In this document: positions 28,666 to 63,674 of the stretch, piece by piece
How positions within the stretch are numbered: position 1 is the first letter of the stretch
Layout: each line of letters begins with the position of its first letter
DNA from: Manduca sexta
Lineage: Eukaryota; Arthropoda; Insecta; Lepidoptera; Sphingidae
Assembly (NCBI RefSeq): GCF_014839805.1
Contig: NC_051117.1
Span: forward strand, 7,812,001 to 7,876,000
Direction of reading: 5' to 3'
Length of the DNA stretch: 64,000 nt
Program-made: the position numbers and the translations under genes
The notes under the pieces: generated by a model
Told to the model about the DNA's origin: nothing
Database searches by the model: none
What the model saw: only the letters and a program-made list of their open reading frames with translations

Positions 28666-30463
28666 AGATTAAAGATTATTCTAACAGCCATTCTATTGTA
28701 TATACTTTTGGCGCACTTGTTCAAGAGCGATATAGTCTGCAAAATGTTTATTTCATTTTGCGACATCTATTGAGTAGCTTTTAAATTACTTGTACGTTTT
28801 CAACCGTAATAAATGGTTTGAGTAAAAATCTTTACGGATTTTTGGCGTAATTAATTACACAAATTTGTTAAAAAATCTAATTTCAAAATGCCCAATAATT
28901 TTGGTATGGTAACTAATGTAGTCTTACTGTAGTGTGTTCAGAAAGAAAACCGTCGTGGGATTTGAGGTCGCCACTGTCTTTAATTACCTTTTGTTGTTAA
29001 GTTTCGACATGTTTCTATACAAATATCACTAAAAACAACACGCAAAATCATTGAATAACAATGCAATACTGCTGTTCTCAACGCAAAATCGGTATGTCAG
29101 GGAAACCTTATTTCGAGATAGTCGAAATTTTGTAAATATAGTTTTATAGTTTTGTATGTAAAACTGAGATAGACAAACTCTTTTAAGTTTTTTTTAACAA
29201 ATTCTAGATACCGTTACTTAGGTAAGTTCATTAGATGGGTATTTCTAAGCTATCTGACGACATAAACACCAAGATTATGTTTTTTTTTTTTGAGACCGCT
29301 TTTGAGCTTAGCACGGCAGAATACGACATGAGAAATAAGTTTGACATTTACCAGATAGCGGAGAAGGGTTGCCATGTAAAATTGTAAAGTTAATTCACTT
29401 TTTGGCCACGACGGTTTTCTTTTTGAACAGACTATATAAAGGCAGAAAGTAGGCGCATATAAAATTTACATTTCTGAAATTCACATATCTGAAATTCGAC
29501 TACACTTTGTACACAAAGGTATAAAATTAAACACATAACTGATTATCTACTGATATATTTTCGGAAAACATAGAGAATTATAAATTATTTACAAATTAAC
29601 ATACATAATGCATTAAATTTATTTTTACATATACGTGTTTGCCGTTAATTCTCTTTGAAAAATATCTTTCCCAACCTTAGTTCCTCCCTCCCCAAGTTTA
29701 GATCCTAAGTCCATATTTACTGCTCTCTACGCTCTGGCCAGCGAAGATCTCTCCTACAACAATTTTCACCCTTTACTCAACAAGAACTAATCCCAGCTGC
29801 GTATCAAGTCATCTCATTTATATCCCGTAGTCACTCCGGCGCAGCGTCATGGCCGCTGTGAAAAAAAATACTATTAAATGTCGTAAGCGAGGCGATGCCA
29901 ATGATAGATAGGTAAAAGTTTAAGTAGATTATATTTACAAAATAAACTAGATACGACTAGTAGAGTGGCTGGCATTAAAGGAGCCTATAAAAAAATTGAT
30001 AGGGTGCAAGAGCACAGCATCTATACAAGATTCTCTGGTAGTCTGACCTTATATACATCGGGATCACTAAAGGTCAAGGGCCCTGTATCATTGATAAGGC
30101 TGATTCGGCAGTATCATTTATTTATATATTTATTTAAGAACCTCCAACGAAGGATACACGGCATATAATAAATACAATGTCGTAGCTTTTATACAATTAG
30201 CAATGTGACGTGCCTCTTCAATTAAAGGAGACCACAGCATGCAAATTTATAATTTAGTACAGCGGCAAAAATAATAATAATATTTGGTATTAATATTATT
30301 TAGATATAGAAGTGGAAACTTAAAACAAGAGAAAAAAGGATAAAACATAATAAGAAGTGACAAAATATAACAACATCTTATTTCATACCCCTGAGTATGA
30401 AATAACCTAACATAGGGTTGGCCATAGGACTTCCATTAAGAACGAAGTTCCTCGCGCATTCAT

Positions 30464-33138: not shown

Positions 33139-33780
33139 TTACGATGATTTTAAAGATTCAAGTTCAGCACGTTCTCTTTTCGATTTTAATTTATCTCTGT
33201 ATATTTTGATGCGTTCAGCATTCGTTTTTCTTCTGAAAAATATAAAACTAAAATTATTTACATTTTTTTATACGATTTAAGTTGATAAAATAGAAAATCT
33301 AGTATAATTGTTCTCATGCAAAAGATAAATCATACCTGGCAAGAATCGCCTCCAACGTTTCGTTCTGTTGCTTCTTTTTTTTATTGTCTCTGTATCTTTT
33401 AGCGCGTTCAGCAATGGCTTTTTTTCTGAAAAACACGAAATGAAATTATTATGATTTTTATATTGTTTTAAATTTAAAAAACGAATACAACTACCCTAGT
33501 TTCCTATGTTTGGTTTGGATGAGATTTTAGGTGAAATACATTTTTGATAAATGTATTTAAAAAAAAGTAGTCAGCTACACTAATATAGCACGTTGTATGA
33601 CAAAAGATTATACCTGGCAAGGCAGGAATCAGATGTTTCATTGCGCAATTTATTTTTTTGATTCTCTCTAAACTTCTGTTGGTACTGAGCGTTTGTTTTT
33701 CGTATTTTTATTTCAATTTGATTTTCTATTTTTTTTCTCTGACGGTACTCTTTTTGACGGTGAGCTTTTGATTTCACCAT
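33139..33780 (-). CDS. Small three-exon gene for a basic, charged protein with exon-by-exon motif repeats
   Basis: Exons 33780-33614, 33425-33336 and 33232-33139 join in phase (2/1 both times) to give 116 residues. Exon 1 begins MVKSKAHRQKEYRQRKK; exon 2 contains AIAERAKRYRDNKKKKQQNE; exon 3 contains TNAERIKIYRDKLKSKRERA and ends SLKSS-TAA. Each exon carries an [AH]xRxKxYR[DQ] motif followed by Lys/Arg/Glu-rich helix, so the exons look duplicated from one another. I do not recognise the family; a basic coiled coil or nucleic-acid-binding helix is possible. It lies 0.4 kb downstream of the nuclease gene on the same strand. Possible transposon origin cannot be excluded. Confidence 0.55.
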
Positions 33781-34188
33781 TGTCTCTCTATAAAAACCGC
33801 AAACACTCGAATCACATGTCCGATAAAAACATATGAACACTTTAAGCAACTGCTTCAAATTATGAAATATTATTCAGTTACTTTTTTAAATCATTTGCAT
33901 TCTTTCTCGAATTTCCATTTCTCAAAACTTTAAATAATGGTATAATATAACTCTCGCATAATTTAAAACAAATAGGTTTCACGATTTTTTCATTCAATTT
34001 TTTTTTATCACCTATTAATAGTCAAGTCTGCTATTCAAGTCAATGCTCAGACGAACGAGAAGGAAGGAACGTGCGGTGTGTATACATACCTGCTCATAGA
34101 AAGAGAAAGACATATCGACGAGGTATCTTACGTGACGTAACATTTCCTCCCAAACCATGACCGAGCGTTAATGAAATTCCAAAAATAC

Positions 34189-35941
34189 TCACGAAAAATA
34201 TTTACGAATGATCGCATTCCTTCTACCGTCATCTCCAGGCTTGTCATAGACATCGACAATACTCCCATGCTCTATGTGGGCTTCCAACACTGCATTCTTT
34301 ATGTCAGGCGGGGGGACATCTTCGCCATTCTCCACGCATATGTTATGGAGGATGCAACAGGCGGTGATCATATCGACTGCTGTCTGTAAATTAATCCGTA
34401 ACCCTACTGCGAGAGCTGGGAACCTCTTCTTTAACATGCTATATAGTGTCTCTACTACTTTTCTGGTCTCGCTGTGGCTTTTATTGTAGCGTTTCCGCAC
34501 TTCTGTGGTTGGTTCTAGGTACGGTGTGAGCAAATATTTCTGAAATTTATAAACAGTAACGACCTTAAGTTTGATTTTTCTAATTTATTCGTAAAATTAA
34601 GTACAACACTAACGATTTAAAATGATAGTAGTATGTATAAAGTTTTCAATTTATCTCACTTTTATTTATTTTGTATAGATTGAAAAAAATGGCTTTATCA
34701 ATAAACGCAGCATACGTATGTAATATATTATTATAGTTAGCATGCAGTATTCGTCTATGCCTGCTCTCACAAAGAGAACAGTGTATGGAGGGCATATAAC
34801 ACAAAAATCTTATGTGACGTTACATTTTCTCACGAACCACACAAACCGCAAGTTGCGTTGACGAAGTTCGTCACTTTCTATTTTGCGTACAAAGCATAGC
34901 AAGCAACGGAAACGAGACAAAATAGTGTATAACTAGACAGATGTTTATAATTGTATAGTGTTCATTAGGGCCCATAGTTATATTTTGCTATTTAATAAAT
35001 CTAGTATTAATAAGTAAATTATAATTTGTTTCCAAACTATTTTTATATGCGAATAACTTGATGGAGTGTGCAATACCTTGTATACTTTGTAATTGTATAT
35101 TCTAGGTGTCATTTTTTCTAGTGAATATACTTTTCAGTTATCTAACTTTATAAACCAAAGTAGATAGAAAATTATATCCGTACCTTCAAGGGATACGCGC
35201 TGTCACCAAGCAGACACGCTTTACCATATTCTCCTGCCTCAAACTCCTGGCTCAACACGCTGTCCTCAAACACTCTAGCATCGCTAGTGGAGCCCGGTGA
35301 ATGAGCGACCACGTGCCTTATCCTCAATTTTGAGTCTACCACCGTTTGTACATTCAATGAGAAATAGGCTCTTTTGTTTTTGTACGCGTCACAATTGTTA
35401 CCTGTAAATGTTTAATAACCTCACTAATATTATCAATGCGAAAGCTTATGAAAATGTAGCCAATGTAACTACTAGACATAATAAGACTTGAGATCATGTC
35501 TTAAGATGGCGAGCGCAGTGGAATACCAAACAATACTTTGTAATTCAAGGTCTTGGATGGTGTTTCTACTGTTTATGAGCAGTCGTATCGCGTACCATCA
35601 GGCGAACGGCAAGCTCGTCTATTCATTCAAAAAAGAAAACACAACTAAAATCCAAACCTGGCGAAGTAATCCTCACATGCGTGCAATCTATACACCCTAT
35701 GATGGTAGGAAAATTCGCTACACTACAAAACTCCTTCTGACACATCTCTATATCTTCGGCAGTCGGCATGTGTATATATTTGTCCTTCAGCTTGACTATC
35801 GCGCTTGATACTCTCTTGACGATCCTGCTTGCTGTAGATATGCTCACTCGATGACCTGAAGCTATCTTCTGTAGATGAGTGCCGGTGGCGTAGTACCTGA
35901 GGGCTATGAGTAGCTGTTCGAATGATGCCACTCTTTCACTC
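34189..35941 (-). CDS. Exons 10-12 of the fusion gene: HARBI1-like DDE nuclease
   Basis: Exon 35941-35658 has the HARBI1 helix-turn-helix region (LLIALRYYATGTHLQKIASG, then STASRIVKRV) and the first catalytic Asp in IIGCIDCTHVRI. Exon 35401-35184 has YFSLNVQTVVDSKLRI, the second Asp in SPGSTSDARVF, and LLGDSAYPLK. Exon 34539-34189 has KYLLTPYLEP, the third acid in ETRKVVETLYSMLKKRF, then ACCILHNICVENG, and ends KYFS-TGA. These are the diagnostic motifs of DDE_Tnp_4/HARBI1. No stop or frameshift interrupts them. A retroposon copy sits in the 35657-35402 intron without touching the exons. Confidence 0.9.
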
Positions 35942-38900
35942 CTGGAAATTTATAAATAAAGTTTTATATCCTAACTAGGTAAATAAAAAGCCTAGCTATG
36001 TTTTAGTAAGTAAAGAACTAATTTATTGTTTTACAACGTTAATTTTAAAACGAAAAATAAAAGAGACGCCTTTAATGCAGGTTTTTTATTTTCAAGGCTG
36101 TATGAAATATTAGTGTAATATACCTCTATGCTCAAATACCTCTTCAAGGTATACAGGGTGGTTTTTACTTAAATAGCACGTGAGACACGCGTTCATAGCC
36201 CCTAACTACAATGCCAAAACCGCATAACCTACTATCATCTACAGAAGTCCTCTGCACAACAAAGGTCTTCTTTAAAGACTTATTTTTAATATAAAAAAAA
36301 CATTGTTGAATTATGTCGCAATATTCAATACTTGATAGCTATGACACCAAAAAAAACCTCGACCCTAGTGGTAGTATCTAGGGTCTGTACCGGCTTTAGA
36401 AAGATAAAGCCAAAGAAAATATTTAAATAAAAAAAAAATATCGCTCGAAAATCGTGAGCCAAAAATCCTTTTCGTTCTTCTTCGTTCGTTCGTTCTTTTC
36501 TGGTCCTACCCAGGAACTCCTAAGAACGTCACCAGTCGATGGCCCAGGGGGGCAAGTTGATATGGAGAATGAGAAAAGTATGTATTGTAAGTAAAGTCCA
36601 GAGTACATGTTTCTCCTCTAACGCCTCTCCCGCTTTAACATAGAGCAAAGCGTAATTGAGCGTACCGAATATTAGGAATGGAAATGGTGAATTCGTTGGA
36701 GTTTTAGAACCTCTATGGAGGGGGCAGCTGCCCATCACTGCCCCCCCTTGGTGACGCCCTTGAGGACTCCTAATTGACCATATTAAACCCTACATGCATG
36801 ATGCAACACATCAGTGGCAAAGAGTCCATATAACCCGATTCCTGCCGGCTTCTCTTTCGTAATTTATATAAAATCTAATTATTAACGGTGAAGGAAAACA
36901 TCGTGAGGAAACCTGCATACTTGAGAAGTTCTCTGTAGGAATTTCTAAGGTGTGGGAAGTCTACCAATCCGCACTAGGCCAGCGTGGTGGACTAAGGCCT
37001 AATCCCTCTCAGTAGTAGAGGAGGCCCGTGCTCAGCAGTGGGCAAGTATATAATACTGGGCTGATATTATAATAATTATTACAAAGATTTACAGACCGCA
37101 TTAACGCATATTAGTACCTACATTATTGTGTTGTATCGGGTTTTCTTTCGAAAAATTTCACCCTTCGCTGCAACACATCTATGATCCTACTATTTAGATG
37201 GTGAGACAGCGACCACGGGTCAAATGACCCACTAACTAATTCACTGAGTACTGATTTGTTAAAAATTGACACTTACCTATTACTGAATTCCAAGTCTTTA
37301 TCGATTTCCTTTCTATCAATCCTTTTACTATTTAGATGTTTATGGGACAGTGACCATTGCTCAAATGACCCACTTACTAACTCACTGAGTACTGACCTGT
37401 TAAAAATTGACACTTACCTGAATTCCAAGTCTTTATCGATTTGATTACATATCTCGATAGCTGTTCTCTTTGACATTCTGTAAGTTTGCATAAATTGAAC
37501 GTCATCAATATCTATGATATCGATTTTTGATTTGATTGATCTTGACTTTTTTGACGGCGTGTGATCTGTACTATTGTCGGCGATCTCTGGAAATGAGCGA
37601 AATAAAGTATATTGTTAATTGGTAATTATTTGTCCTTTACCCTAGGCTTGCAATTCACGCAACATTTTTGGAACAACCTGTATATGACGTCATTGAATCT
37701 GTTAATTAATAATTCCACTTTGTTTTTCGATCTATCTCTATTTATAAACAACATAAAAACACAGGAAGAAATTAATTATAATATTATAAATGCCAAAGCT
37801 TGATATTTTTTTTGTTTCGATGATTTTATGAAAAAAGAACATCTGATTATTTAAAAAGAGTGGCACTAGCGTCGTACAGATGGCGCTGTGGATCGATACA
37901 GTAATTTAGGATCTTTTGTAGTAGGACAAGCTTTTAAATGAATCCGCCAGCAACACCTAGCAATTTAGGAAAACAAAATCAATTCTATTCGTGAAACTAT
38001 AACTGACCGTACAGTAAACACATTAGTTTTACCTGACTCTTCTTGATTTATATCTTCCCTTGGCCCGCTCTCCATTATTATTAATTCCTCATGTCCAGAA
38101 CTGACTGACGTAAAGCATGTTTCTTTAGCTAAAAATCAGATTTATTCTGTTACTTATCTATTTTCATTTACAATTAGAGAAGATTGAGAAATATCATTGT
38201 TTGGAACAGAGGTAAAGTAACAAAAATGCAGTGTATTATTATGAAACTATTTTTCGGATATTATCCGCGATGAAATCCGAAAATAGAAAAATACTTTCAT
38301 TTTAATATCTAACATTCACATTAACAAAAATCATAATGCAGTGTATATTATCATAAGTTCAAAATGGGGGTAGTTACTAAAAATCGAACAGAAATTAAAT
38401 AGAATAAAATATAATACCTGATGTGGTATCATCTAGCATCTCAGTATGACTAGACATGGGAACAGCATTAGTTGTACCACCATCCGTACCAACATCTCTT
38501 CTCCCTTTGCCCACCATCGCATTTGTACCATCACTACTGTCACATTCGTCTGCGCTCGAGAAGTGCACACTGTCACCCTCGTTAACTGACTCCAACTTTA
38601 TTCCTATATTTGTGAAGCAGTGTCTATGTTCCTGAATACAGACGGCTTGTTGGTGATTAGGGCTTAAAATATGCCTTAGGGACCAATATTTTCCGATCTC
38701 AAACTATTTTTGGTAGTTACTACGTCTTATTCATACATTTAAAAAATAATTAATTCTTCCAACATCTAGGGGATAAGGAATTTTCTAAATCCACGCCATA
38801 ATAAATAATAGGAGTTGCAATCAAATGACAGTAACAATAAACTGTGACGTCACAGCATATAACGCGGCGTGCGTGAAAAAGAGATAGCACTACACCACAA

Positions 38901-41900
38901 CAACTGCACCACACCCGAAATTTTGCTCACAATAATATTTCTAATATGAATAACTGCGCACATTTCACAGAAGAATTATTTTTCCGTAAAGTAAAGATAG
39001 TTTTGTGGATTTTATTGCGGTTTTAAAATTTTCTCCCAACGTTTTAAATGGCCGCGGTCACATAATATAGAAATACGCGATAAAATCTAAAAAAAAAATA
39101 ATTAATTCAATGTCTAACATTCGCGTAAACATATAAGGAAGTACCCTATTGTAATGTGAATCCATAGTGTAATATGTTATTGTATACAGGGCGTCCTATA
39201 AATAATAGATAAAACGTGAGGCTCCAGCATATTTTTAGACACATCTCACTGTCTAGAAATTTGCTAAAGTTTTATCCTATTATGTCTATGATAAGCAGAT
39301 CCAGTTTTATTAGTCGACGACGTGCGCACGTGAGCTCCAAAGAATCTTGTGAAAAGTTTATTTAATGCAGTTAATATATCGTTATTAATTTTGGTAAGTT
39401 CAGCCGGCTTGTCATCGTATGTCGATATTACATTATTAATTTTATAAATTTATAACATCAATAACGTAATATCGACAAATCGCACCTGTAATCCAATACT
39501 ATCACGATACAAAAAATAATTTACATCACTATAAAATCAATCTAAATCATCTAATCGTACAAAGACTGTAATAAAAGTATCATAAAAATTATCTACACGC
39601 AGTGGTCTAATGTATAAATAAAAAAAAATCGAATAATGAAATATCCATTCCATAAGATTCCTCGGAGCTTGCGCGTGGACCTTACCTGATGTTCGCACGC
39701 GGCCCACAACACTGTGTTCTCCGACACGTGCGCCACCGTCGGAGTCATCTCTTCATCGTCCTCACACTCGGACTTTATTTCAGACTTGATGCTGAGAAAC
39801 AGACGAATAAAGATCGAGATATTTGTGTTACGTATAGCGAATACTAGATGTAGACTGATAACGCTTTGCAAGTGTTCGTTCTGGATTCGAATCCCTGGTG
39901 GGAGAACACTTCGGTGGAATTTTATTAAAAAGGTTAACCCGGTCCGGATTTTTAGTCAGAAATTACGTCCGGCGACCAATTGTAAAAACTTTGCCAAATC
40001 GTGGTATGAAGATTATTAGTAATAAAACTTATGGATGTATAATTTTCATAAAATATTATAGACATACAACAATTAAATTAACCTGACATTAACTGGCCCT
40101 AATCCTTACATATTATAAAAAGGAATCCCTCGCCGCATCGCATCGCGTCTGGTAACATGAAGGCAATAAAATCAAAACTATATCTATACGTAGAACGGAT
40201 GAACATTGACAAATGGACATTGTTTGACTCTAGGAAGGACAGTCTACTTTTATCGCGGGTAAACATAAAAAGGGCTTTTTATCCCCGAAAACCTCAATAA
40301 CACAGGCGAAGTCACTCTAGTATAATGTATAGCTAAAAAAAATGTATAATAAGTGCCCTTAAAACTATCAATTAAAAACTTTGAATTCAAAATGATAAGA
40401 CTTTCTACTATACATCATTATTAAGAAATCAACATTAATTTACTGACTATATATCACAGTTGCGAAGGGTTCAATTTTTTAAAAGCAAGCAAGTAACCCA
40501 AGCAAAAAAAAATGCCTTAGTTAACATATAGCAGCCAATTTTACAGAAAAGAAAACTAAGACAAACGTAAATAAACCTAAAAGGGAAGCCGGTAGGAATC
40601 GGATTGTGTGAACGCTTCGACACTGATATATCATTCAGATAACAAACCTTAATGGACCATCCCAATCAGGTTCAGACACAGTTTTAGGATCCAGAGTCGG
40701 CAGATATCGTCTTAATGTAGCTAGCACGAATTTGACTTCAGCCTGTAACAATGGTACCGAGATACAGTTGTAAACTCCACCTTGGTTCACCTGTTCACCT
40801 TGTGATGGTTCAATCAGCTCAAGTACTCACTGCAGGTCTATCAGCTGGTATTCGCAGCACATAGTGTTGGTGGTGTGCTCTGTCGGCCTCGCACGCGCCG
40901 CACAGGTCCAAGTCGCTACACTGCACACATGTATAGCGGAACCTGCACACAGACAAATCAACACCAAGTGAACCCGCTGCGCAAATTATAAAAAAAAAAT
41001 CTAGACCTCAGGGAGTTGCTGACCTTGTGAAGTGTCATTAAAAAAACCTATTGTCAAAACAAGTTTACAACAGTTGCAGGTGGAATAGTCTTGTCCGACA
41101 CATAAATTATTATCTGCTGCTTAATTATGGAGTAATACTTACTCTGTTATTAACCGAGCGCACGAAATGCATTGGACCGAATCGTTTATATTTACATCCT
41201 CTGAAAATAATTAAATTGGCAAATTGTATCAAAATCGCCTTACTTATATTAATAACTAAAATATTCATTAACATATTTTCTTACTATCGGTAAATACACG
41301 TCATTCGCTATGTATGTCATTCAAATATGATACCAGGTTTTTACAACACCCTATACTTAAACATGACATGTGAAGCTACAGAAACCAAACTTATATCAAA
41401 TCCCCAACTATTAATAATATTATACTATTAATAACTAATTTATTTATCTGCATATTTTACTATTATGGGTAAAAAAATATATATTATCAATACCATATTA
41501 TATGTGGTTCAATGATTATCCCTTGTTTGTACATCACCCTATATACATAACAAATATAAGGTTAGGGGCCAACCAGTGGTATCATGCGGCGGGCTAGGCT
41601 CCTGTCTTTGCTCTTGTTTTTTTTTTATATATAGAAACAATTTAGATTAAAATAAAGACTAAAGATACATAGGTGAAAAGGCAAAGACGCAATAAACATC
41701 ATAATATAGATTGTTAAACAAAAAGGATAGCATTTAGAATAGAAAAAAATATATAATAGCTACTTTAACAAATTATGGATATTACATTAACTTTCTCATA
41801 TGAGTGGTGCTTAGAAAGACAATATTATTATGTTTTAACAACATAAAGTAGGCCAACACTGGGTTGGTACAATAATTAAATATTGGAAATAATTTTAGTT

Positions 41901-42932
41901 ATTTTGTTATTTTTTTTAATTTCATTGCTATCTAATTGTTAAATTTAGAGTTAGATTATATTGTTAGATGTAAGTGTTTTGACCAAGTGCTGTAAACCTT
42001 CATTATATTTATAAATAAATATGTAGAAAGAGGTCCGGGTTGACTATGTCCACCCCAGAAGTTGCTTCATACTGACATACAGCATTTTGAGTCAGCTTAC
42101 TATGACTATAAATGTTTAACACAACTTATTTCAGTCTAGAACACAGCACCACCAAGAAAATGACTTTAGTTAGATATTATTTAATACATACTACAATAGA
42201 CATAAGCATGGACTAAACAATACCCTCTTAAAATAGACCACAGAAGAAAGAGACAAAGTGATTCTGCAGCCAATACCTGTCTCTTTTCTGTGCGTCTGTG
42301 GTTCAATCTGCACAGCCTCTCCTGTTGTATGTCCTGTACGGACACTACTTTCTATAAACGGTTCTGGATGTTTTATTTCATCAACCAAGTCAATGATTTG
42401 TTCCTGTTTGTCATTCGTCAAATGTAGTGTTGGTATGCTTCCGTCCTTCAATATTCTTCTTCCATTGACTAATCCGTATCGAAAACAGTCTTCATCAAAA
42501 TGTATAGAGCACAGTGATGTCCGTACTCCAATAGATACGTTGCTCTTTCCCATTATATCTAACCATTTCTGCCTCATTTCTGCATTGGAAGGAAATCTGT
42601 AACAATTATGGAGTAAAAATAATCATATTTTTTACCCCGGATATTAATTAATTCCTTGATTGTTTCTTACAGGTCTAACTCTGAATATTCCCTAGAATAA
42701 AGTCCATGCAGTTTTTCAAGGTAAATATAATTAAAAAAAATATTATATTCATTTTAGTGTTGGGGTAAGTATCTGTTTGCTAAACATCCAATAAGCCGTT
42801 TCAGTGTCTACTTTTCACAAACATAAGATAGAATGGACAGTAATTAAGTAAATATTTGCTAACTTACTTGTGATAGGATCTTCGGGGAAATTTATCACCC
42901 CTCCATTTACATAAAAAACATGTATAAACCAT
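34189..42932 (-). CDS. THAP - ZZ zinc finger - HARBI1-like DDE nuclease fusion gene (12 exons)
   Basis: Exons, in transcript order: 42932-42868, 42596-42277, 41200-41143, 40942-40831, 40742-40648, 39791-39686, 38631-38418, 38128-38033, 37586-37418, 35941-35658, 35401-35184, 34539-34189. Every intron has GT/AG ends and every junction keeps phase; total 2088 nt, 695 residues plus TGA. Domains: THAP (residues 1-80), ZZ (about 137-180), acidic/Ser-rich linker (about 186-350), HARBI1-type N-terminal region (about 385-412) and DDE nuclease (about 413-690) with D497, D547 and E609. THAP domains bind DNA, ZZ domains usually bind peptides, and HARBI1 is a domesticated PIF/Harbinger transposase; a targeted nuclear nuclease or DNA-binding factor is an inference. 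The many introns and host-type domains favour a domesticated gene over a mobile copy. The main uncertainty is whether the linker exons really join the ZZ half to the nuclease half; a separate nuclease gene starting in the 38128 exon (internal ATG) is the alternative. Confidence 0.72.
35462..35640 (+). repeat. Retroposon family B copy in an intron of the nuclease region
   Basis: Lies between the exons at 35941-35658 and 35401-35184, opposite in sense to the gene, ending with 'cattcaaaaaag' only 18 bases from the exon end. Confidence 0.75.
36810..37172. mobile_element. TIR element family I, split by SINE-E
   Basis: 'cagtggcaaagagtcc' and 'attcctgccggcttctc' on one side, 'ttcacccttcgctg' on the other. 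Related pieces at 21187-21260, 40540-40625 and 46063-46663. Confidence 0.5.
36885..37083 (+). repeat. SINE-E copy, 5' truncated, inside an older TIR element
   Basis: Begins at 'acggtgaaggaaaacatcg' and ends with the 'gctgatattataataatt' tail. It interrupts the TIR element at 36810-37172 in an intron of the fusion gene. Confidence 0.75.
37187..37441 (-). repeat. Tandem duplication spanning the splice donor of fusion-gene exon 9
   Basis: Two imperfect copies (about 37187-37309 and 37322-37441) share 'caaatgacccac', 'ctgagtactga' and 'gttaaaaattgacacttacc'. The second copy holds the used donor at 37418. The first copy duplicates the last part of the exon and its donor, with six extra bases (see the candidate microexon at 37277-37312). 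Confidence 0.75.
37277..37312 (-). CDS. Candidate 36-nt cassette microexon in the fusion gene
   Basis: Within the first copy of the tandem duplication, 'ttgatag|' and '|gtaagtg' bracket 36 nt reading KEIDKDLEFSN. It begins after phase 2 and ends in phase 2, so inclusion would add 12 residues and keep the frame. It may be unused; only transcript data can tell. Confidence 0.3.
37418..40742 (-). CDS. Exons 5-9 of the fusion gene: linker between ZZ and nuclease
   Basis: Five exons (40742-40648, 39791-39686, 38631-38418, 38128-38033, 37586-37418) are open and phase-compatible. The first (AEVKFVLATLRRYLPTLDP) matches in position and style the exon after the ZZ in the rightward paralogue (AEIYAVLSSIRRQLMTLEP). 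The second contains SEIKSE, again echoed in the paralogue. Then follow acidic, Ser/Thr-rich low-complexity stretches and finally the region with YRMSKRTAIEICNQIDKDL, which resembles the N-terminal part of HARBI1 proteins. Exact limits rest on splice consensus only. Confidence 0.65.
40831..41200 (-). CDS. Exons 3-4 of the fusion gene: ZZ-type zinc finger
   Basis: Exon 41200-41143 (58 nt) carries C-x2-C (VQCISCARLIT) and exon 40942-40831 (112 nt) carries FRYTCVQCSDLDLCGACEAD followed by H-x2-H and YVLRIP. Together they hold all ligands of a ZZ finger in the usual order. The second half resembles the ZZ of p62/Ref(2)P proteins, but no PB1 domain precedes it, so I do not call it a p62 gene. Exon lengths and phases match exactly those of the ZZ exons of the neighbouring rightward gene. 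Confidence 0.85.
42277..42596 (-). CDS. Exon 2 of the fusion gene: rest of the THAP domain and linker
   Basis: The exon continues the THAP finger with the conserved W33, the C51/H54 pair in SLCSIHFDEDCF, and SIPTL at about residue 75, equivalent to the family's AVPTIF end. A polar linker follows (about residues 80-128). It ends at 'gacag|gtattgg' in phase 1 and joins in frame to the first ZZ exon at 41200, making a glutamate across the junction. The intron between is about 1.1 kb; an additional in-phase exon there cannot be excluded. Confidence 0.78.
42868..42932 (-). CDS. Exon 1 of the fusion gene: start of the THAP domain
   Basis: This short exon reads MVYTCFLCKWRGDKFP and then RRSYH before a 'gtaagt' donor. 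It supplies the first two zinc ligands of the THAP C2CH finger (C5, C8). It ends in phase 2, which matches the next exon (starting FPSNAEMRQKW), so the junction gives the usual THAP H-x-FP segment. The ATG is the only start in frame here and lies where THAP proteins normally begin. Confidence 0.72.
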
Positions 42933-43837: not shown

Positions 43838-43880
43838 ATGCCACCTGTATAGCGATGTGTATTCGGATGTCCCACAGATG
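43838..43880 (+). CDS. Tentative first exon of the rightward gene, with an in-frame TAG
   Basis: The stretch 43853-43880 reads R-CVFGCPTD in the phase needed by the THAP exon at 44420 and would supply the missing C-x3-C ligands, ending at 'gatg|gtgaat'. The nearest in-frame ATG (43838) is separated from it by a TAG at 43850-43852. Either the first codons come from another exon spliced to the AG at 43851-43852, or this allele carries a nonsense change, or my exon choice is wrong. Confidence 0.4.
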
Positions 43881-46800
43881 GTGAATGTCCATATATTATA
43901 ATAAATGTATTCACTCTACGACCCTTTTAGCCCATTCCAAACTATAACTATAACATAAGGGAAGACAAATAAAATTTAATGATCTAACCATTTTCAAATT
44001 ATAACTATTGTATAATTTTCCAGAACAAAAAAAGACACACATCACTCATTTATCCCCGAAGGTGTATGCAGAAGCGTAACCAGGGCATCCACTTTTGGCC
44101 AAGCGTGTACCGTCCCATGGTATAATAGACGGCGAGCCTATCGCCATATCGGGCACAAATTCCATACGCTGGGCTGATACTGAGCAAAAAAAAACAAATA
44201 TCATTTTGCCCGCCCCAGGATTTTTTCAGAAAACTTATTATAATGATTTTAAAGTATCAGAAGATGCTATTAGATTTGTTTCTCTATGTAATTATTTTAT
44301 GCATTTATATTCCTTATTTTAAATTTATTATGTAGGCTCTAAATAACTTAACTAAAAAATATATAATTTTAATAAAAATATAATAACTAAAAAAATTATA
44401 ATAATAATATATTCCACAGGCATTAGTCTTCATAATTTTCCAAATCCCCGGAGATTTCCTGACCAATTCCATAAGTGGAATGAACTGGTCAGTGAGCCAG
44501 TGGAGGATTTGATGCCTGATGAAATATTTGGCGAGAAGAAGGTGTGCGACCTGCATTTTACAATAGATGATAGAAACAGGAATAACAGACTGAATGCCAT
44601 GGCTACACCAGTGCCATTTCCTTACCAGAAACGTAATATTTTTTTTCCTAAATATGATTGCTGATAAAAATATAAATAAATCTCTAAAGGCCTCTTAAGG
44701 TTGGCAATACTTTGACAATATCTTAAGATTTGTGATATTGTATTGACTTTTGATTGAAATAATTGCAAATGGAACTTTATCTATACTATTATATAAAGCT
44801 GAAGAGTTTGTTTGTTTGTTTGTTTGAACGCGCTAATCTCAGGAACTACCGGTCCAAACTGAAAAATTATTTTTGCGTTGGATAGCCCTTTGTTCGTGGA
44901 GTGCTATAGGCTATATATCATCACGCTATACCCAATAGGAGCGGAGCAGTAATGTCTTATCTCAGGAACTACCGGTTCGAACTGAAAAATTCTTTTTGTG
45001 TTGGATAGCCCTTTGTTTGTGGAGTGCCATAAGCTATATATCATCACGCTATACCCAATAGGAGCGGAGCAGTATTGTCTTATCTCAGGAACTACCAGTT
45101 CGAACTGAAAAATTCTTTTTGTGTTGGATAGCCCTTTGTTCCTGGAGTGCTATAGGCTATATATCATCACGCTATGACCAATAGGAGCGGAACAGTAATG
45201 AAACATGTTGCAAATCAAGGAAAAAATATTAGTTTTGAGAGCTTCCGTTGCGTGCGCTGCGTAAACGGTTAAAGTTATGCAACAATGATGTATGACGGGA
45301 TTGTTCCTCTTAAAAAGTTCTAAAAAATATATTATAAAACAAAGTCCCCCGCTGCATCTGTCTGTCTGAACGTGTTAAACTCAAAAACTACCCAACGTAT
45401 TAAGAACATAGGCTCCCGGGAAACTACTACTTTTATAACGGAAAACTTTAGCCTGAAAAACTTTATAACGCGGGCGGAGCCGCGGGCAAAAGCTAGTCTT
45501 TCAATATTCATGATACTTTTTTAAAAACAAAACTATTTATTATTTATGAATAATTCAATAACAATAAAATAAGAGATTTTTTGCACTGACTGAAAATGGT
45601 AATCAGTATATGGGTAATGTTAAACATTTTTTTATATTGCATGGATTTGAAGGCAGTATATTTTTTTTTGATAGTTTTTTATTATTGATTTTGTTTTAAC
45701 ATAGATTTCCTTTTATGATTTAACAATATTTATTATTTGAAATTTAGAGGCTTTAGTTTGAGCATTTTTATAATTTCATGCAGTAAGTAATTTCTTCAAC
45801 TAGATAGTGTTTTTGGGTGTGTGACCAAATGTAAAGGACTTTGAGACTATACTTATTCAATATTATTTAAATCCACATTATGATTTCCATTAACTCTGTT
45901 ATGGTACAAGTTTTAATGATTGTGACGTCAACCTGTCACAGGGGTAAATAAACAAAACCACTTTTGGTTCCCAACTAGCCGTGGCCGCACGTCCTCTCAT
46001 TCCGACTGCCGCATGGCAACTACCCTCCACCCCCGGCCGTGCGCCCGCGTCTATATTTTATTTATGTAAAATCTAATTATCACTAGAACTATTTGCAGAC
46101 CGTTAGTATGTTAGTGCCTCTATGTTGCGTCGAGTCCCCTCTCAAAAGATTTCGCCCTACGTCACTAACGTATGTTATGGCTATATTGCCAGATTGCCAG
46201 ATTGCCGCTATTATATGAGACTTAACATGGCTGGCGAAATATGAGTAGAATAGCACCTTCCTCTCACTCTTTAATAGAAAAATAGCTTTATATAATATAT
46301 GTTTTGGCAAATAGCACCAAGGCTGATAAAAATCCCACAGGAGTCGTGCATTTGTCACCTTCTAGGGGTGTGCGGTTAATGGGTTCTATTCCTAGATCGG
46401 GCAACACTATATTTTTCAGCCGGCGAATGGATCTCTCAGTGGGATTTTACAACTAACCCAAAGAGTTGCCGCTGCTTGCTTGAAAAGGTGTATAGCTCCC
46501 AGTGGCGAAAGGTGACATTTTACGAAAGTAAACCCGACACAACATAAATGTACTAACATGCATAAATGCGGTCTGTAAATCTTTCTAATGATAATTAGTT
46601 TCTACATAAACTTACAAAGAGAAGCCGTTAGGAATCTGTTGTATACGCGCTTCGCCACTGTGAGCGCCGACCCTACAATGTAATGGAATATGGGCATGAG
46701 GAAAGTATTAGGCCGTGCATTTTTCTGCAATAAACAGTATCATCCCGCTCTCGGCCTATAAAATCTTCCGAGGAACGGTCGGTCGATAAATATGGAATTA

Positions 46801-49800
46801 TGTGTTAAAGACAAATCATTTTTTGTTCCAAATATAAGACATTACAGAATTGTAGAATCAATAAATACATCAAGTATGCAACTATGCAGTGAGTTTATTA
46901 AACCTTCAATACAAACAATATTATTATTAATTATTACGATAACTGCACACTATATATTAAAAAAGACTGTCTCAGTGGCGTGGTATTGTATTGTCCTATA
47001 GCATTGCGTGCACGATACGACTATCGCGCTGAGGTTCGCGTTCAAATCCCGGGTCAGTAGTGATATTGGATTTTTCTGAATATCAGTTCGTTTGAAGTTA
47101 TGTCCAATAAGTGAAATCTGGGCGTGTTACACCTCTGTACCCTAAAAAAGGCGTAAAATATTATGCATTATTTATGAATATTGTTCAACAGATTGGTGTA
47201 TTAATTACGCGATTGCCTCTCGGACTAATGAACGCGCGCAGGTAATAAATTACTCGTCAATAAAATCGAGTTGCGCGTAAATCACGGACCCTTGATTTTA
47301 AGTCGTAGAAAACTGTAAAGTTCCTGTTTAAAGTAATCTAACGAATATTGTTGCAATCCTTTAAGTAAAACCTGTAATTATATGCTACTATTAAAAAATA
47401 TAAAGCCATCCTCATCTATTTCGATAATGATTGGTTGCAATCGGTAATTTTCCACCAGAGGTCGTAACGTACGGAAGGTCTGACTGAACTGGTGGGTCAG
47501 CTCAAAGCTTAGCGCTTGCGCTATTGACCCTAAGTGCTGGGTGGAGTTCGCATTGCACAGGCAACCTAGACGCGACACCGTTTAGTGCTTAAATCATGCT
47601 GCGTAATAAAAAATTTACTTGGACGGTTAAAAAGCGTGTTAAGAAGATTTATCCTTCAGTAACCGAACTAATGATGGATCAGACGACCACCATGCTATCT
47701 GGAGAATCCACCGACAGCGGGTTCCTGGCTAAGGCGGCTCCTATCCTGAGTAAGATTACTTATTTATTAATCTTTTTTTATTTAAATATAATTGAGGCAT
47801 AATTAATTTCATACCTATGTAATTTAAACGATGCCAATGATTTTGTTCAACTTATATTTAAATTTTATGAAAAAGAAAAAATATTTCAATACTATATTGT
47901 TATGTACCGTAATTATGAAATATTTTGACTTATGCTCGTGACTCCGCCCACGTTAAGATTTTCCTAATTGAAGGGATTTTCACGAAAAAAAGTGACAAAA
48001 AAACAGGAAATCACCTGTTTAAGTAAATCAAATGTAGATTAAATTACAGTAGGTCAATAATGAATTTGAATTTAAAATTGTTTCGACTAATCTAAACGCG
48101 TTTTGACTATGTACCTAAAATGTTAAATGTTAATGCCTTAGCCGAACGGCCGCCATTTTGTCGACGCGACAAAAAGGTTGCGCAATGGGAACGTCCGCCA
48201 TTTTGTTTTATCTTAGCTGCCAAAATCAATAAATTGGACGAAGTGAACAAAGCAGATACCTACTTGATATGAGATTTGACTCAGAGCGGAATGCTTAGCT
48301 GATATGAAATATCGAAAATATTTTTTATTAAATTTGAATTTTAAGTTGTTTCGACTAATCTAAACGCGTTTTGACTATGTACCTAAATGTAAAATGTTAA
48401 TGCTTTAGCCGAACGGCCGCCATTTTGTCGACTCGACAAAAAGGTTGCGCAATGTGAACGTCCGCCATTTTGTTTTGTCTTAGCTGCCAAAATCAATAAA
48501 TTGGACGGAGTGAACAAAGCAGATACTTGATATGAGATTTGACTCAGCGCGGAATGCTTAGCTGATTTGAAATATCGAAATTATTTTTTACTTAATGGAT
48601 GGAAGACTGGTTTATTAAAAGAAATATTAGACATACTTAATAAAAAAATATTCATGTGCATTGGGATATTTTAACATTGCGTTGATAAATTAATCCACAT
48701 GCTCGTATTCATCTATGCTATCATTGTGCCAAAAATAATCCATGAATATCGAATACTTACACCAAATATCCTAATTTGACTTATAAACAGACTTCAAAAA
48801 AGGAAGTTTTTAATTCGACGTGTATTTTTTATGTTTGATAGATACCTCAGCGCTTCGTCATTTATTAACCAATTTGGAAAAATATTTATTTATTCCAAAT
48901 AATAATGTAGTTTCGGATTGGTCTCATAGAATTTTTATCAAATGTTCAGTAGTTTGATTTTTAACCAAAAATAACTGGAGTAAATATGCTGTTCAAGTAA
49001 AAAAAACTCTTTACTCATTTTTGCTTCCCTGTAACTTTTCATATAGTGTTTTTGCGTGGTGTTTTGTTAGGTATATTTGTTACGATAATACATACATACA
49101 TAGCATCAGGCCTTTTCCCTTTTCAGGCATAGGTAGGGGTGTAAAACCTCACCGCGATATACGTACTGCGTGCGCAATACAACTACGCCGTAGAGGCAGA
49201 CGATTTCCTACTAACATAATCAATTTTAGCTGAATAAGAAAAATATATAAACAATTATACGAAAACAATGTTCGGTTTTAATTAGGTTCCGACTTCAAAT
49301 GTACTAAAATAGTATACAATATACATAAATATATACCTATGTATATTTTTTTTTTTTTTGGTTTTTAAAGGCGATTCAACATTTCGTTAAAAGTTTTGAT
49401 CATTTTGTAGTTTAGTGCGAACTGCGAATATAGCGTATTGTTTACTGATGTATGATATTGCCGCTACGACGAATTCTCTTATAGTAGTAATGGCATTAGG
49501 ACGTGTAAAATAAGTAATAACTTACTTTTTATTGGTATTCATTTTGTTTGAAACTTACACAATATAAAGTGTTCATTTTAAGAGATAAGTATATGGTTTC
49601 AATAGGGGACCGTCCTGTGTTTTATTTTGTACATTATTCTATACGTAATGCTTAATAATACGAAAAAGAAACCCTCCTGCGAAAACTGCGTTAAAATTGC
49701 TTAAAAAATGAGCCAGTAATTTATATTTCAAATATTACTATGTGCCGAAGAGGGCGCGAAGTGGGAATATCGCTACATCCCTTTCTTTCGCACGCGTCGT

Positions 49801-52800: not shown

Positions 52801-55800
52801 TGACATACCGGATGCCATGTCAATTTACAACGACGAGGAGGCGACTGGCGCTCTGCAAGTCACAACCAAACGCAAAGGTACAGCTGCACTTATATATATA
52901 GAATGTTGAACTTAAAAACCTTTTTTATTAAATTTATTTTAAGGATTTTTTACGAATTTTGTTTCACTAATTTCGACGTTTCAAAAAGGGATATTTATTT
53001 CAATAAAACTTATTTGGCAGGTATTATCACAATTTTTGTATTACTCCTGACGTTTCGAAGACTTTCAGCCTTCATGGTCACAAAGCGGACGGATATACGA
53101 GATAACGCGAAAAATTTGTTGTATTTCAGTATAACATTGGCTTTAGCTTCAGAAACCAAAATGAATTTAAAAAAGGGGGATAATTTATATTTTAATGGCA
53201 CATAGATAAAGGTTAATTACGAGTCAAATATTCAAGAGTTCTCAATATGAATTTATTTTCAGCTGACGTGGCTAAACACCTGGGATTCACATGCAATGTG
53301 TGCCGCAATGCTATATCTGGGTAAGTGTATTGCAACCATATTAGTCCAGTGCTAAAGCGGAATCAGTAAAATCACAAATTTATTTATTCGTCGGAATCAA
53401 AAAAATCACTAATTTATTCGTCATTCGTCATTAGAAATCAGTTTTAATAAGAGTTCTTTCGTATATTAAATCACAGTGTGTGTAATTAATTGATGTGGGA
53501 TCAAGTAAAATGGCTATATTACTAACCGCCATTTTCAATAAACGATCCCAATAATTTTTTCGATCTATCTTAAAAATGCACCAATCAGAAAGTGTTTTTT
53601 GACATGCTTACAAATGAGTTGTTTTGATTGGCTAATTCTTGGAATCAGATTGGAATCTATTATCGAACAGCCCTAAATCCTTTGCTTAAAAAGTTTATTT
53701 AGTGTAAATAGTATCGAGTGAGCTATGAACGCGTTTGGATGTCTTGGTATGTAGGTTCCGCTACACATGCGTCCAGTGCAGCGACATGGACCTGTGCGGC
53801 GCGTGCGAGGCTGACAAGGCTCACGGTGATCATTACATGCTGCGTATCCCCATACCGAAGCCTGCAGTAAGTACACATAGTTAGTAAGATTGGTGATGAT
53901 TTGAAGCAAAAGTAAAGATAAGTTTGAGAAGGTTAAAATATCAATGAGAAGACCTTTAAAAATTTCTGAAAAACTTTTCCAAAATGGACATCACAAAATG
54001 ACGTCATTTTGTAAACATAATTGAGCAGCCAATGAGTTAGATCTTAGGGTTTAGTATTAATTGAGAGGCACGGGATTTTCCCCTAATTATAACTTATTCT
54101 AACAAACCTTAATGCTTCGTACGGGAACCGCGTTGTCATAAGAATGAGAAATGAATTTAATATGTAGTACCTGATTTTGGGTCACCTTACTTTTTTTTTA
54201 ATTTTGTTACTTCCACACTATGGGAATAAGTAATCATCATAAACAGTTATGTCGCGGCTAATCAGCTTTGCTATGGCCGTCTGTAAAGTAAAAACTTTGT
54301 GTACGTTCTCTTATAGGCAGAGATCTACGCCGTTCTATCTTCTATACGGCGTCAACTAATGACACTCGAGCCTCAGATCGAATCCAACAAGAGCGTGGAG
54401 AGTGATAATATTATGAGGTTCGTTATTATTATTGTCCTATACTTTGTAAATATAATATCCACATATAACTATAATTAATATATTTTGTACAGGGTGTTTG
54501 CAAATAATGGAATTAAGATTTATAAGTCCGGTGACTGAAAATTACTTTATTGTGAACTTATAATAATATTGCTAACCGTGTAGTTCAAATTTTATACCTG
54601 ATTTATAGCAATTATTGGCTCCATTACAGCACAAAATTATGTGACGTTGTGTGGCAAGGCGAGCGTGGGACGGCACTTGTATAAATCTTAAATATGAAAC
54701 TTTGAAACGAAAAACTTCAAAGGATGGAGTGGGGCTCCGAAAATCATGAATATCGTGTACTTAATTTATGGTCCTTACAAGTTATTTCCGTAATTTATAG
54801 TGCCTAAGAGGTATAATGTAAGGGCAATTTTAATAATAAATTGGCAACATCCTGATCAAATAGCAATAGGTTATTTTTCTATAGCCTTTCTTTTGTTCCA
54901 TTCAGATTCATGTCTGAAATAAAGTCCAGTTTTGGTGGTGTCGAGGGAATGACAGCTATTGACAAGGAGGCAGATAAAATCGGCAAGGAGGCAGATGTAT
55001 TCGGCAAGAAAGCAAATGTGATCGACAAGGAAGCTGATGTATTCGGGAAGAAGGCAGATTTAGTCGGCAAGGAAGTCGATGAATTCGGGAAGGAGGGCAT
55101 GGAAGCAGATGTATTCGGCAAGGAGGCAGATTTAGTCGCAAAGGAGGCAGATGTACTCGGCAAGGGGACAGATATATTCGACAAGGAGACAGATGAAGTC
55201 GGAATGGAGGCAGATTTAGTCGGCAAGAAGGCAGAAGTAATTCTCACGAAGTCAGATGTAATTGTCAAGGAAGCAGATGTAGTCGGCAAGAAGGCAGATG
55301 TAGTCGACAAGGAGGTAGTTGTAGTCGACAAGAAGGCAGATGTAGTCGACAAGGAGGTAGTTGTAGTCGACAAGAAGGCAGATGTAGTCGACAAGGAGGT
55401 AGTTGTAGTCGACAAGAAGGCAGATGTAGTCGACAAGGAGGTAGTTGTAGTCGACAAGAAGGCAGATGTAGTCGACAAGGAGGAAGTTGTAGTCGACAAG
55501 AAGGCAGATGTAGTCGACAAGGAGGTAGTTGTAGTCGACAAGAAGGCAGATGTAGTCGACAAGGAGGTAATTGTAGTCGACAAGAAGGCAGATGTAGTCG
55601 ACAAGAAGGCAGATGTACTCCGCAAGAAGGCATATCTACTCCGCAAGAAGGCAGATGTAGTCGACAAGGATGTAGTTGTAGTCAGCAAGAAGGCAGATGT
55701 AGTCGACAAGGATGCGAATGTAGTCGCCAAGATGCTAGATGCAGTCGGCAAGAAAGCAGATATACTCCGCAAGAAGGCAAATGTAGTCCGCAAGAAGGCA

Positions 55801-61869: not shown

Positions 61870-62751
61870 ATGGTTGGGTGTAGCATTTATGGGTGTAAAA
61901 GCCGTAGCGAAAAACAAGATAGTATCACATTTCACGCGTAAGTGTATTAACTGTTTTTATTACCAATTTTCTGTATTACAAAGTATATTTACATATTAGA
62001 TCTGAAAAGAATGTTCATCAAACCGTAATCTTGTGTTTATTCATAAAAATATATTTATATAAATATTATAAATTACGCATATGAATCCAGTGCAGTTTTT
62101 TTGTCAAACTTTTATCAAAAAAATTAGTACTAAAACTGATTAAAATTTGGTACATGTAACTTTATTTTGAAATCAAAGTTATTATTAAAATGTTGTTTTC
62201 TGATTGTAAATTCAACACGCTCAAGTTTCGCCAAAGTACTTAATTTTTTTGACAAAACTAAACCAACCAACATAGAACATCAAACTGAAACTGAGTTGGA
62301 TCTTTTAATATTACTCAGAGAGACCTAGATGTCATAAAGTCCAGCAATTACAGAGACCAACCTTATGACATTTTGGAACCAAAAAAATTATTCTTATAAA
62401 TCTATTTCTTTCTTTCTTTACGCTCATAGCATTTGCAAAATAGTGTATAATGCTTGTACAATAAAATTTGGGAAATTTGCTTAATGAATTGATTGGAAAT
62501 AACAGAATGAAATTACCATTTATGTTGTATTATAATAATATGCAGTGGACCCTTAAAGAAGTATATCTTGTAATTTTTGCAGGTTTCCTAAAAATGCATT
62601 TTCTAAAATCCTTTGGATCCAAGCTACGGGTCGTTCTAATTGGACACCAACAATATTTTCCAAGATATGTTCAAAGCATTTTGAAGAAAATGCTATTGTC
62701 CGCAGAAAGAAAATATCTAGAATTCTTCCAACAGCAATTCCAACCAAAAAT
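61870..62751 (+). CDS. Third THAP-domain gene, 5' part (continues beyond the window)
   Basis: Exon 61870-61937 reads MVGCSIYGCKSRSEKQDSIT then FHA, ending 'cacgc|gtaagt'. Exon 62583-62751 reads FPKNAFSKILWIQATGRSNW, then IFSKICSKHFEENAIV and SRILPTAIPTKN, ending 'aaaaat|gtaagt'. Junction phase 2/1 is correct. The THAP signature is complete: C-x4-C, FP, W, C-x2-H-F and an AVPTIF-like AIPT. Seventy-nine codons are present and the open 3' donor shows that more exons follow, none of which I could place before the window ends. The family binds DNA through this finger; the downstream part decides its function. Confidence 0.85.
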
Positions 62752-63674
62752 GTAAGTTTGTATTATGATAAATAATAAAGAATATTGTATAGTTTTTTAA
62801 TCAAAAGATCAAAAAAAATATTTTAATCTAATGGCAAATTTTAAGAATTTAGTTGCAACAAAATAATATCATTTATCAAAATACATCACGAAAAACCTTA
62901 TACTTTTTAAAAAAAAAATACATTTAATTGTCCAAATCGAAAATTCTCATAAAATTCAGAAAAATATTCATAAGTCGAAAAGAACTAAAACAAAGAAAGA
63001 ACGAAGAAAACTAAAGAAAATCGCGGAACATACATGGGTGTGATTCGGATACCCTAAGGGTGCTCTATCTCTGGACATCTGCTTGACACTATTTTCTGGG
63101 ACAGCCTGTATAATTGTTTATATTTCCAAAAAATGTGGAAACTCACAGCCAGTGAATAAAAATGATAAATAAATAAATATTAAAATATAAAAATTAAAGC
63201 TAAGTAAATAATTCACTTTAACAGTGATGCCCACACTAGGCTGTGCCTGTATTGCAGACATCCTTTTCAATTTCACATTATAGTATGTGTGTGTGCAACT
63301 GATTGTATATTATGAAACTAACAAATTAATAATAATCAAATATTAATGTATTTTTAAGAATTTCTCTATGTTCATAGTTGACATTCATTAGCAGACTTGA
63401 TTTTGTTGAATTGATTGAACTTTATAAGTAATCATGTGGTACATGCTCTATAGCTATACCATATAAACACATTGAAAACTTATCTATATTTTTTTCACGG
63501 GCCAAATTGTATATAATTTATAACAGATATCATTTTCATTCTACAAATAAAGCTAATAAGTATATTTATCGTTTTAATAGGGTATTTTAGTGTATGTGAG
63601 AAAAAATCCAAAAATATATAAATAAGATAGTTTAGTCAAAAAGCAATCGGAAAATAGTCTAGTCTAGTTTCAGT
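62752..63674. other. Intron of the third THAP gene
   Basis: AT-rich, with no identifiable exon or repeat beyond low-complexity A/T runs. Confidence 0.35.

Follow-up and report, generated by a model that had tools for sequence, protein, structure and literature searches.

The 64,000-nucleotide window analysed here (Manduca sexta assembly GCF_014839805.1, contig NC_051117.1, positions 7,812,001 to 7,876,000 of the forward strand; all coordinates below are window positions) carries on its minus strand a gene, LOC115450068, whose protein model joins a THAP finger, a ZZ finger and a HARBI1-type DDE transposase domain. An earlier sequence-only reading had proposed 12 exons, 11 GT/AG introns and one open frame of 695 residues at 42932..34189, and this chain was reproduced from the sequence. 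The public M. sexta protein model, isoform X3 of LOC115450068 (P0001, 767 aa), shows 100% identity over the entire 695-residue query, which rules out a chance exon chain. The P0001 cluster holds 7 sequences, the other six of which were not viewed. The coding span of P0001 runs from 42932 to 29831 in 15 coding exons, and its 767 residues were reproduced letter for letter from the window. The proposal of a single gene at 34189..42932 holds in that one model joins the three domains, but position 34189 is not the gene end in isoform X3: a donor, GTGAGT, begins at 34192 at the end of exon 12, and X3 splices out before the TCG-TGA stop of the first-read frame.

The two fingers are encoded by the first four exons. 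Exon 1 (42868..42932, on the minus strand as are all exons of this gene) holds the start codon and the first two THAP cysteines and is exact in P0001, and exon 2 (42277..42596) supplies the remainder of the THAP finger and an acidic linker. The predicted C2CH finger is present, with a Pfam match at residues 17-80 (41 bits against a cut-off of 23.9) and a complete set of zinc ligands, C5-x2-C8-x42-C51-x2-H54, conforming to the pattern C-x2-4-C-x35-50-C-x2-H. The ZZ finger starts in exon 3 (41143..41200, CISC) and has its core in exon 4 (40831..40942), a 112-nt exon with the same borders as exon 53755-53866 of a divergent neighbour, here termed gene B. It is complete, as had been read, with a Pfam match at residues 135-174 (30 bits against a cut-off of 21.4) and all eight zinc ligands (C139, C142, C153, C156, C162, C165, H171 and H174). 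Exon 5 (40648..40742) encodes a post-ZZ stretch, EVKFVLATLRRYL, that is common to the paralogs, and exon 6 (39686..39791) an acidic stretch and the motif IKSEIKSE, which we take to be a SUMO-type consensus.

THAP fingers are DNA-binding modules, and ZZ fingers recognise peptides or histone tails. Among solved structures, the best ZZ match is p62/sequestosome-1. The equivalents of p62 residues Asp147 and Asp149 are kept here as D158 and D160, whereas the N-degron-binding Asp129 and Asn132 are replaced by I140 and A143. With two of the four key residues given in the excerpted text of PMC6098011 kept, a p62-like N-degron reader was rejected. N-degron reading is unlikely because the Asp129 and Asn132 equivalents are lost, and the ZZ finger therefore probably contacts chromatin or a partner instead. 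The structure prediction left THAP and ZZ without a fold, mostly with a predicted local distance difference test (pLDDT) value below 50, probably due to an alignment dominated by DDE relatives.

Two linker exons follow, exon 7 (38418..38631), in which Pfam recognises no family, and exon 8 (38033..38128), which is 96 nt long, has phase 1 at both ends and could be skipped without a change of frame. The transposase half begins in exon 9 (37418..37586) with the N-terminal helical part of a HARBI1-type transposase (E 2.7e-12 against a HARBI1 profile built in this analysis, which includes the query protein itself). Exon 10 (35658..35941) continues the helical region and carries the first catalytic aspartate, D497; exon 11 (35184..35401) carries D547 and the second catalytic aspartate, D573; and exon 12, at 34193..34539 in the public model, carries the catalytic glutamate E609, the first-read version running on to the TGA at 34191-34189. 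All three HARBI1 catalytic acids named in the sequence-only reading are kept, as is D547. DDE_Tnp_4 is matched at residues 496-645 with 117 bits against a Pfam cut-off of 24.8, and Pfam also reports Plant_tran and DDE_Tnp_1 on the 695-residue protein. A full DDE domain with its catalytic acids marks this half as a PIF/Harbinger transposase of HARBI1 type.

The predicted DDE fold is confident, with D497 modelled on the first strand, D573 after the fourth strand and E609 on the long helix. The structures that match it best are those of transposases; with Foldseek alone, no match had E of 0.001 or lower. Relatives of each half were sought with candidate lengths set by a 0.55-1.75 rule, yielding 18 matches for the THAP-ZZ half (about 247-787 aa) and 238 for the nuclease half (244-775 aa), the best 120 of which were listed; statements on matches refer to those listed. 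The DDE alignment comprises 79 of the 119 DDE matches plus the query, and a separate alignment comprises 66 hand-chosen proteins out of 145. Seven of 56 strongly conserved DDE positions are altered in the Manduca protein. These include position 517 (Lys in 118/118 relatives, Arg here), 516 (Arg in 115/118, Lys here), 541 (Trp in 99/118, Ser here), 546 (His in 114/119, Ser here) and 613 (Gly in 107/114, Ser here). With several near-invariant positions near the active-site motifs changed, the protein may still be catalytic, but its activity is probably reduced. These features bear on the idea of a working targeted nuclease, in which THAP would steer a DDE domain still capable of catalysis to defined sites and DNA would be cut there, in genome defence or rearrangement. 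Such activity would be in keeping with the placement of D497, D573 and E609 on a confidently predicted, transposase-like fold, but the alterations at 516, 517, 541, 546 and 613 speak against it, the nearest relative, from Pararge, likewise deviates at 541, 546 and 613, and neither target site nor partner is known for the putative nuclease. We consider this reading improbable.

Beyond the first-read stop, exon 13 (33336..33425) encodes the basic repeat AERAKRYRDNKKKK and exon 14 (33143..33247) the basic repeat TNAERIKIYRDKLKSKRE, with a possible alternative acceptor before 33232, and exon 15 (29831..29855) provides the final residues, GHDAAPE, and the P0001 stop. A possible in-frame cassette exon of 174 nt with two basic repeats, unused in X3, lies at 33614..33787. 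Exons 13 and 14 and the cassette each have a length divisible by three and encode basic repeats of the type NAERxxxYRxxxK. At window positions 33787-33143 of the minus strand, three phase-2 exons with basic AER-type repeats follow one another. The Leptidea isoforms P0006 and P0007, which share the THAP head, end in comparable repeats at the C-terminus. Rfam reported nothing at the gathering threshold across the window.

Whether the locus holds one gene or two was judged on annotation models, not on transcripts. The joined P0001 is the sole entry for the locus among the matches listed in the searches with both halves, so that at annotation level no separate half-gene model was seen, contrary to the case of two separate transcripts that the sequence-only reading had named as refuting it. 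The paralogous locus LOC115449214 has two separately listed isoforms, P0015 of 436 aa and P0017 of 531 aa, which differ at the N-terminus and are identical over 421 C-terminal residues. Since such near-identical proteins stand as separate entries, any markedly shorter isoforms of LOC115450068 would probably have survived sequence clustering as entries of their own. These observations count against the alternative that a THAP-ZZ gene lies next to a separate domesticated HARBI1 gene downstream, that read-through or the annotation pipeline has joined the two, and that the fusion protein is rare or absent in the animal. Splice phases unbroken across exons 6-9, and the agreement of the public model at all junctions, likewise tell against it. 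On the other hand, a nuclease starting at an in-frame methionine in exon 8 would have an N-terminus close to the length usual for HARBI1, none of the 119 further DDE relatives listed (best 120 of 238) has a precomputed Pfam THAP or ZZ domain, and no listed match from another species joins both halves. Overall, we regard two joined genes as unlikely, though deserving to be kept in mind.

A mobile element was also considered, either an ISL2EU-type transposon encoding a THAP, helix-turn-helix (HTH) and DDE transposase, or a Harbinger copy carrying a ZZ by chance. THAP and DDE in one protein are normal for ISL2EU in the excerpted text of PMC4482050, and P0012 of Phlebotomus papatasi combines THAP and DDE_Tnp_4. 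However, the THAP finger here is 73-75% identical to listed THAP proteins without DDE, and the named DDE relatives among the matches listed are of HARBI1 type. HTH_Tnp_4 reaches only 18.4 bits against the Pfam cut-off of 27. Mobile PIF/Harbinger elements also have a second gene with a MADF/Myb-like domain; within the 695 residues the Pfam scan found no MADF. A directed scan for terminal inverted repeats (TIR) with 3-bp target-site duplications (TSD), 3 kb to either side, found nothing above shuffles. Flanking inverted repeats were rejected as transposon ends, none of the 25 longest of 119 pairs viewed being a clear end. The window holds one DDE copy, and P0001 is the sole match named as Manduca among the best 120 of 238 DDE relatives listed, many of them unnamed. 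An origin of THAP and DDE from one ISL2EU transposon was rejected on account of their separate relatives and the weak HTH, and we see a mobile element of either kind as very improbable indeed.

Outside Manduca, THAP of Leptidea and Brenthis shares 73-75% identity with the finger encoded by exons 1-2. Related THAP fingers of Brenthis, Leptidea, Spodoptera and the sawfly Neodiprion (62-75% identity) come without ZZ or DDE in their listed Pfam domains; in Phthorimaea the ZZ core occurs and Pfam reports no THAP. The THAP finger of P0024 (Neodiprion fabricii) is 60-62% identical to those of Manduca, Brenthis and Leptidea, and that of Spodoptera is 58-65% identical to the same. With a sawfly THAP about as close as that of Spodoptera, the finger here either belongs to an ancient, conserved insect gene or was passed from one lineage to another. 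For the transposase half, the closest non-Manduca relative is a stand-alone Pararge protein at 57%, the next being at 52% or less (best 120 of 238 listed). P0039, a Bombyx mandarina HARBI1 isoform X2, was seen by eye to lack a stretch starting near Manduca intron 10 (35657-35402), hinting that the transposon may already have contained introns when captured. The sequence-only reading had looked to other moths for the joined architecture; in the protein match lists, which are not moth genomes, THAP, ZZ and DDE occur together in no listed non-Manduca match.

Within Manduca, the ZZ core recurs in 11 proteins among the matches (P0001, P0008, P0010, P0014-P0018, P0020, P0025 and P0026), which except for P0026 are all reported from a contig of one and the same length, 10,035,631 bases. 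THAP exceeds the cut-off in six of them (P0001, P0008, P0010, P0014, P0016 and P0017; P0026 was not scanned), and DDE is present in P0001 only. Because five other retrieved Manduca proteins have both fingers, THAP-ZZ is a gene-family layout in Manduca and the nuclease is special to P0001. The suggestion that a ZZ finger between THAP and a nuclease is a new architecture stands for the layout with ZZ, but the THAP-then-ZZ order recurs in the five other proteins.

The two fingers of these paralogs do not pair consistently. The paralogs include loci LOC115449208 to LOC115449217, and P0010 and P0014-P0017 lie outside the window. Between P0010 and P0016, similarity is 96% for ZZ but 26% for THAP; between P0014 and P0017 the values are 97% and 26%. 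Crosswise, the THAP fingers of P0010 and P0014 are 49% alike and those of P0016 and P0017 56%, with ZZ at 79-80%. Compared pairwise, the six THAP-ZZ proteins resemble one another more in ZZ than in THAP in all 15 combinations. The crosswise pairing suggests separate histories for the THAP and ZZ halves, with interchangeable THAP heads on a common ZZ core; ZZ gene conversion or faster change of THAP could contribute to the mismatch.

Two relatives lie on the plus strand of the window. Gene B lies at 43850-56170 with THAP-like and ZZ exons. Its THAP-like exon (44420..44632) is a weak match (E 0.011 among 2401 open reading frames) and is inferred to belong with the ZZ exons; over a stretch of 41 residues its ZZ core exon (53755..53866) shows 73% identity to P0001. 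Near 43.85 kb lies a possible first THAP exon, in which an in-frame stop falls close to a possible start. At 44836-45200, after the THAP-like exon and before the later ones, a 123-base tandem repeat stands in three copies with 92% matches, and one long exon contains about 26 copies of a 42-base unit encoding (KKADVVD/G)n heptads. Gene B has no close match among the retrieved proteins. THAP exons at 61870..62754 match P0008, the THAP-ZZ protein of LOC115450069, the ZZ part of which was not found within the window.

Several known systems resemble parts of this gene. The core of Drosophila mod(mdg4) and lola is joined to many zinc-finger ends; the Manduca family similarly has one common core and many finger variants, but its variable finger is the N-terminal THAP and its common core is ZZ. 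Cosby et al. reportedly described in 2021 host-transposase fusion genes that arise by transposase capture. At the level of the gene model, LOC115450068 likewise unites a host regulatory domain with a transposase domain in a single spliced coding gene, without transposon ends. It differs in being from an insect rather than a vertebrate, in its HARBI1-type DDE, in its THAP-ZZ host part and in its full catalytic domain, and the Manduca case has no cross-species conservation shown. Stand-alone HARBI1 proteins align with the DDE half over nearly its whole length and share its motifs, whereas the Manduca protein adds about 350 N-terminal residues and a basic C-terminus. LPLG1 and LPLG2, described in the excerpted text of PMC9710019, are stand-alone domesticated PIF transposases of Lepidoptera (385-428 and 356-402 aa), highly conserved in 21 and 18 genera. 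They too are moth genes derived from a transposase of the same superfamily without TIR or TSD, but the Manduca one is fused and its best non-Manduca match, in one butterfly, is at 57% (best 120 of 238). With no well-conserved orthologs among the matches listed, it was not placed with LPLG1 and LPLG2, the comparison being by description and not by sequence. ISL2EU, as excerpted from PMC4482050, shares THAP and DDE on one protein, whereas in Manduca HTH_Tnp_4 is under the cut-off, ZZ is present, transposon ends were not found and the relatives of the two halves are separate. Some Hydra THAP genes have DDE_Tnp_4 and some of Crassostrea have Harbinger-derived sequence, according to the part of PMC10027918 consulted. 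Since these and the Phlebotomus example exist, the pairing of THAP with Harbinger-type sequence has precedents, and the novelty lies in the layout with ZZ. The literature searched, which omits most subscription journals, contained no paper on the THAP+ZZ+HARBI1 combination or the THAP-ZZ family.

We consider it probable that LOC115450068 is a THAP-ZZ host gene that acquired a HARBI1-type transposase, its fusion protein acting as a nuclear DNA-binding regulator. A member of the THAP-ZZ family would have gained a complete, intron-containing PIF/Harbinger transposase of this type as downstream exons. The fusion protein would be nuclear, its THAP finger binding a DNA sequence and its ZZ finger and acidic tail contacting chromatin or partner proteins. 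Transposases that have been captured typically contribute DNA binding and multimerisation; here the transposase half could provide a further surface for either function and may direct the protein to sites related to the old transposon. Most likely, the protein would serve as a transcription or chromatin regulator. The sequence-only reading had offered a host regulator or a genome-defence factor; the former remains the likeliest, and nothing observed favours genome defence in particular.

Several points weigh against this capture of a transposase by a host gene. The fusion is supported by a gene model, and the backing of P0001 and its cluster is not visible; exons 7-8 are without recognised relatives, and the exon 8 methionine could begin a separate nuclease. 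The three-domain fusion is found in no other species among the matches listed, while P0012 (1023 aa) joins THAP, DDE_Tnp_4 and further domains in Phlebotomus papatasi. P0014 exceeds the THAP cut-off by only 0.1 bit, and its precomputed domains show no THAP. The ZZ exon compared with that of gene B over 37 codons has a ratio of nonsynonymous to synonymous change (pN/pS) of 0.22, which indicates selection on ZZ alone. Constraint was also seen on the Manduca branch of the transposase half, for which 183 of 329 sites were used, but it may predate the capture and stem from the mobile-transposon period, and is therefore no proof of selection on the fusion.

A broader scheme is also conceivable, in which THAP heads would be exchanged within a clustered Manduca family, via alternative first exons or exon shuffling, on a common ZZ core, one unit having gained the HARBI1 transposase and the basic-repeat cassettes. 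The family would then comprise modular, fast-evolving regulators, possibly policing transposons as vertebrate KRAB zinc-finger proteins do. We put this scheme forward as speculative and on balance doubtful. The interchangeable THAP heads on a ZZ core may nevertheless be a more general finding than the fusion. The transposase half of LOC115450068 may be young and lineage-specific, and the steps of its capture could therefore be dated by comparing hawkmoths. If expressed, the gene would show, in an insect, the capture of an entire PIF/Harbinger transposase by a regulatory gene of the host.

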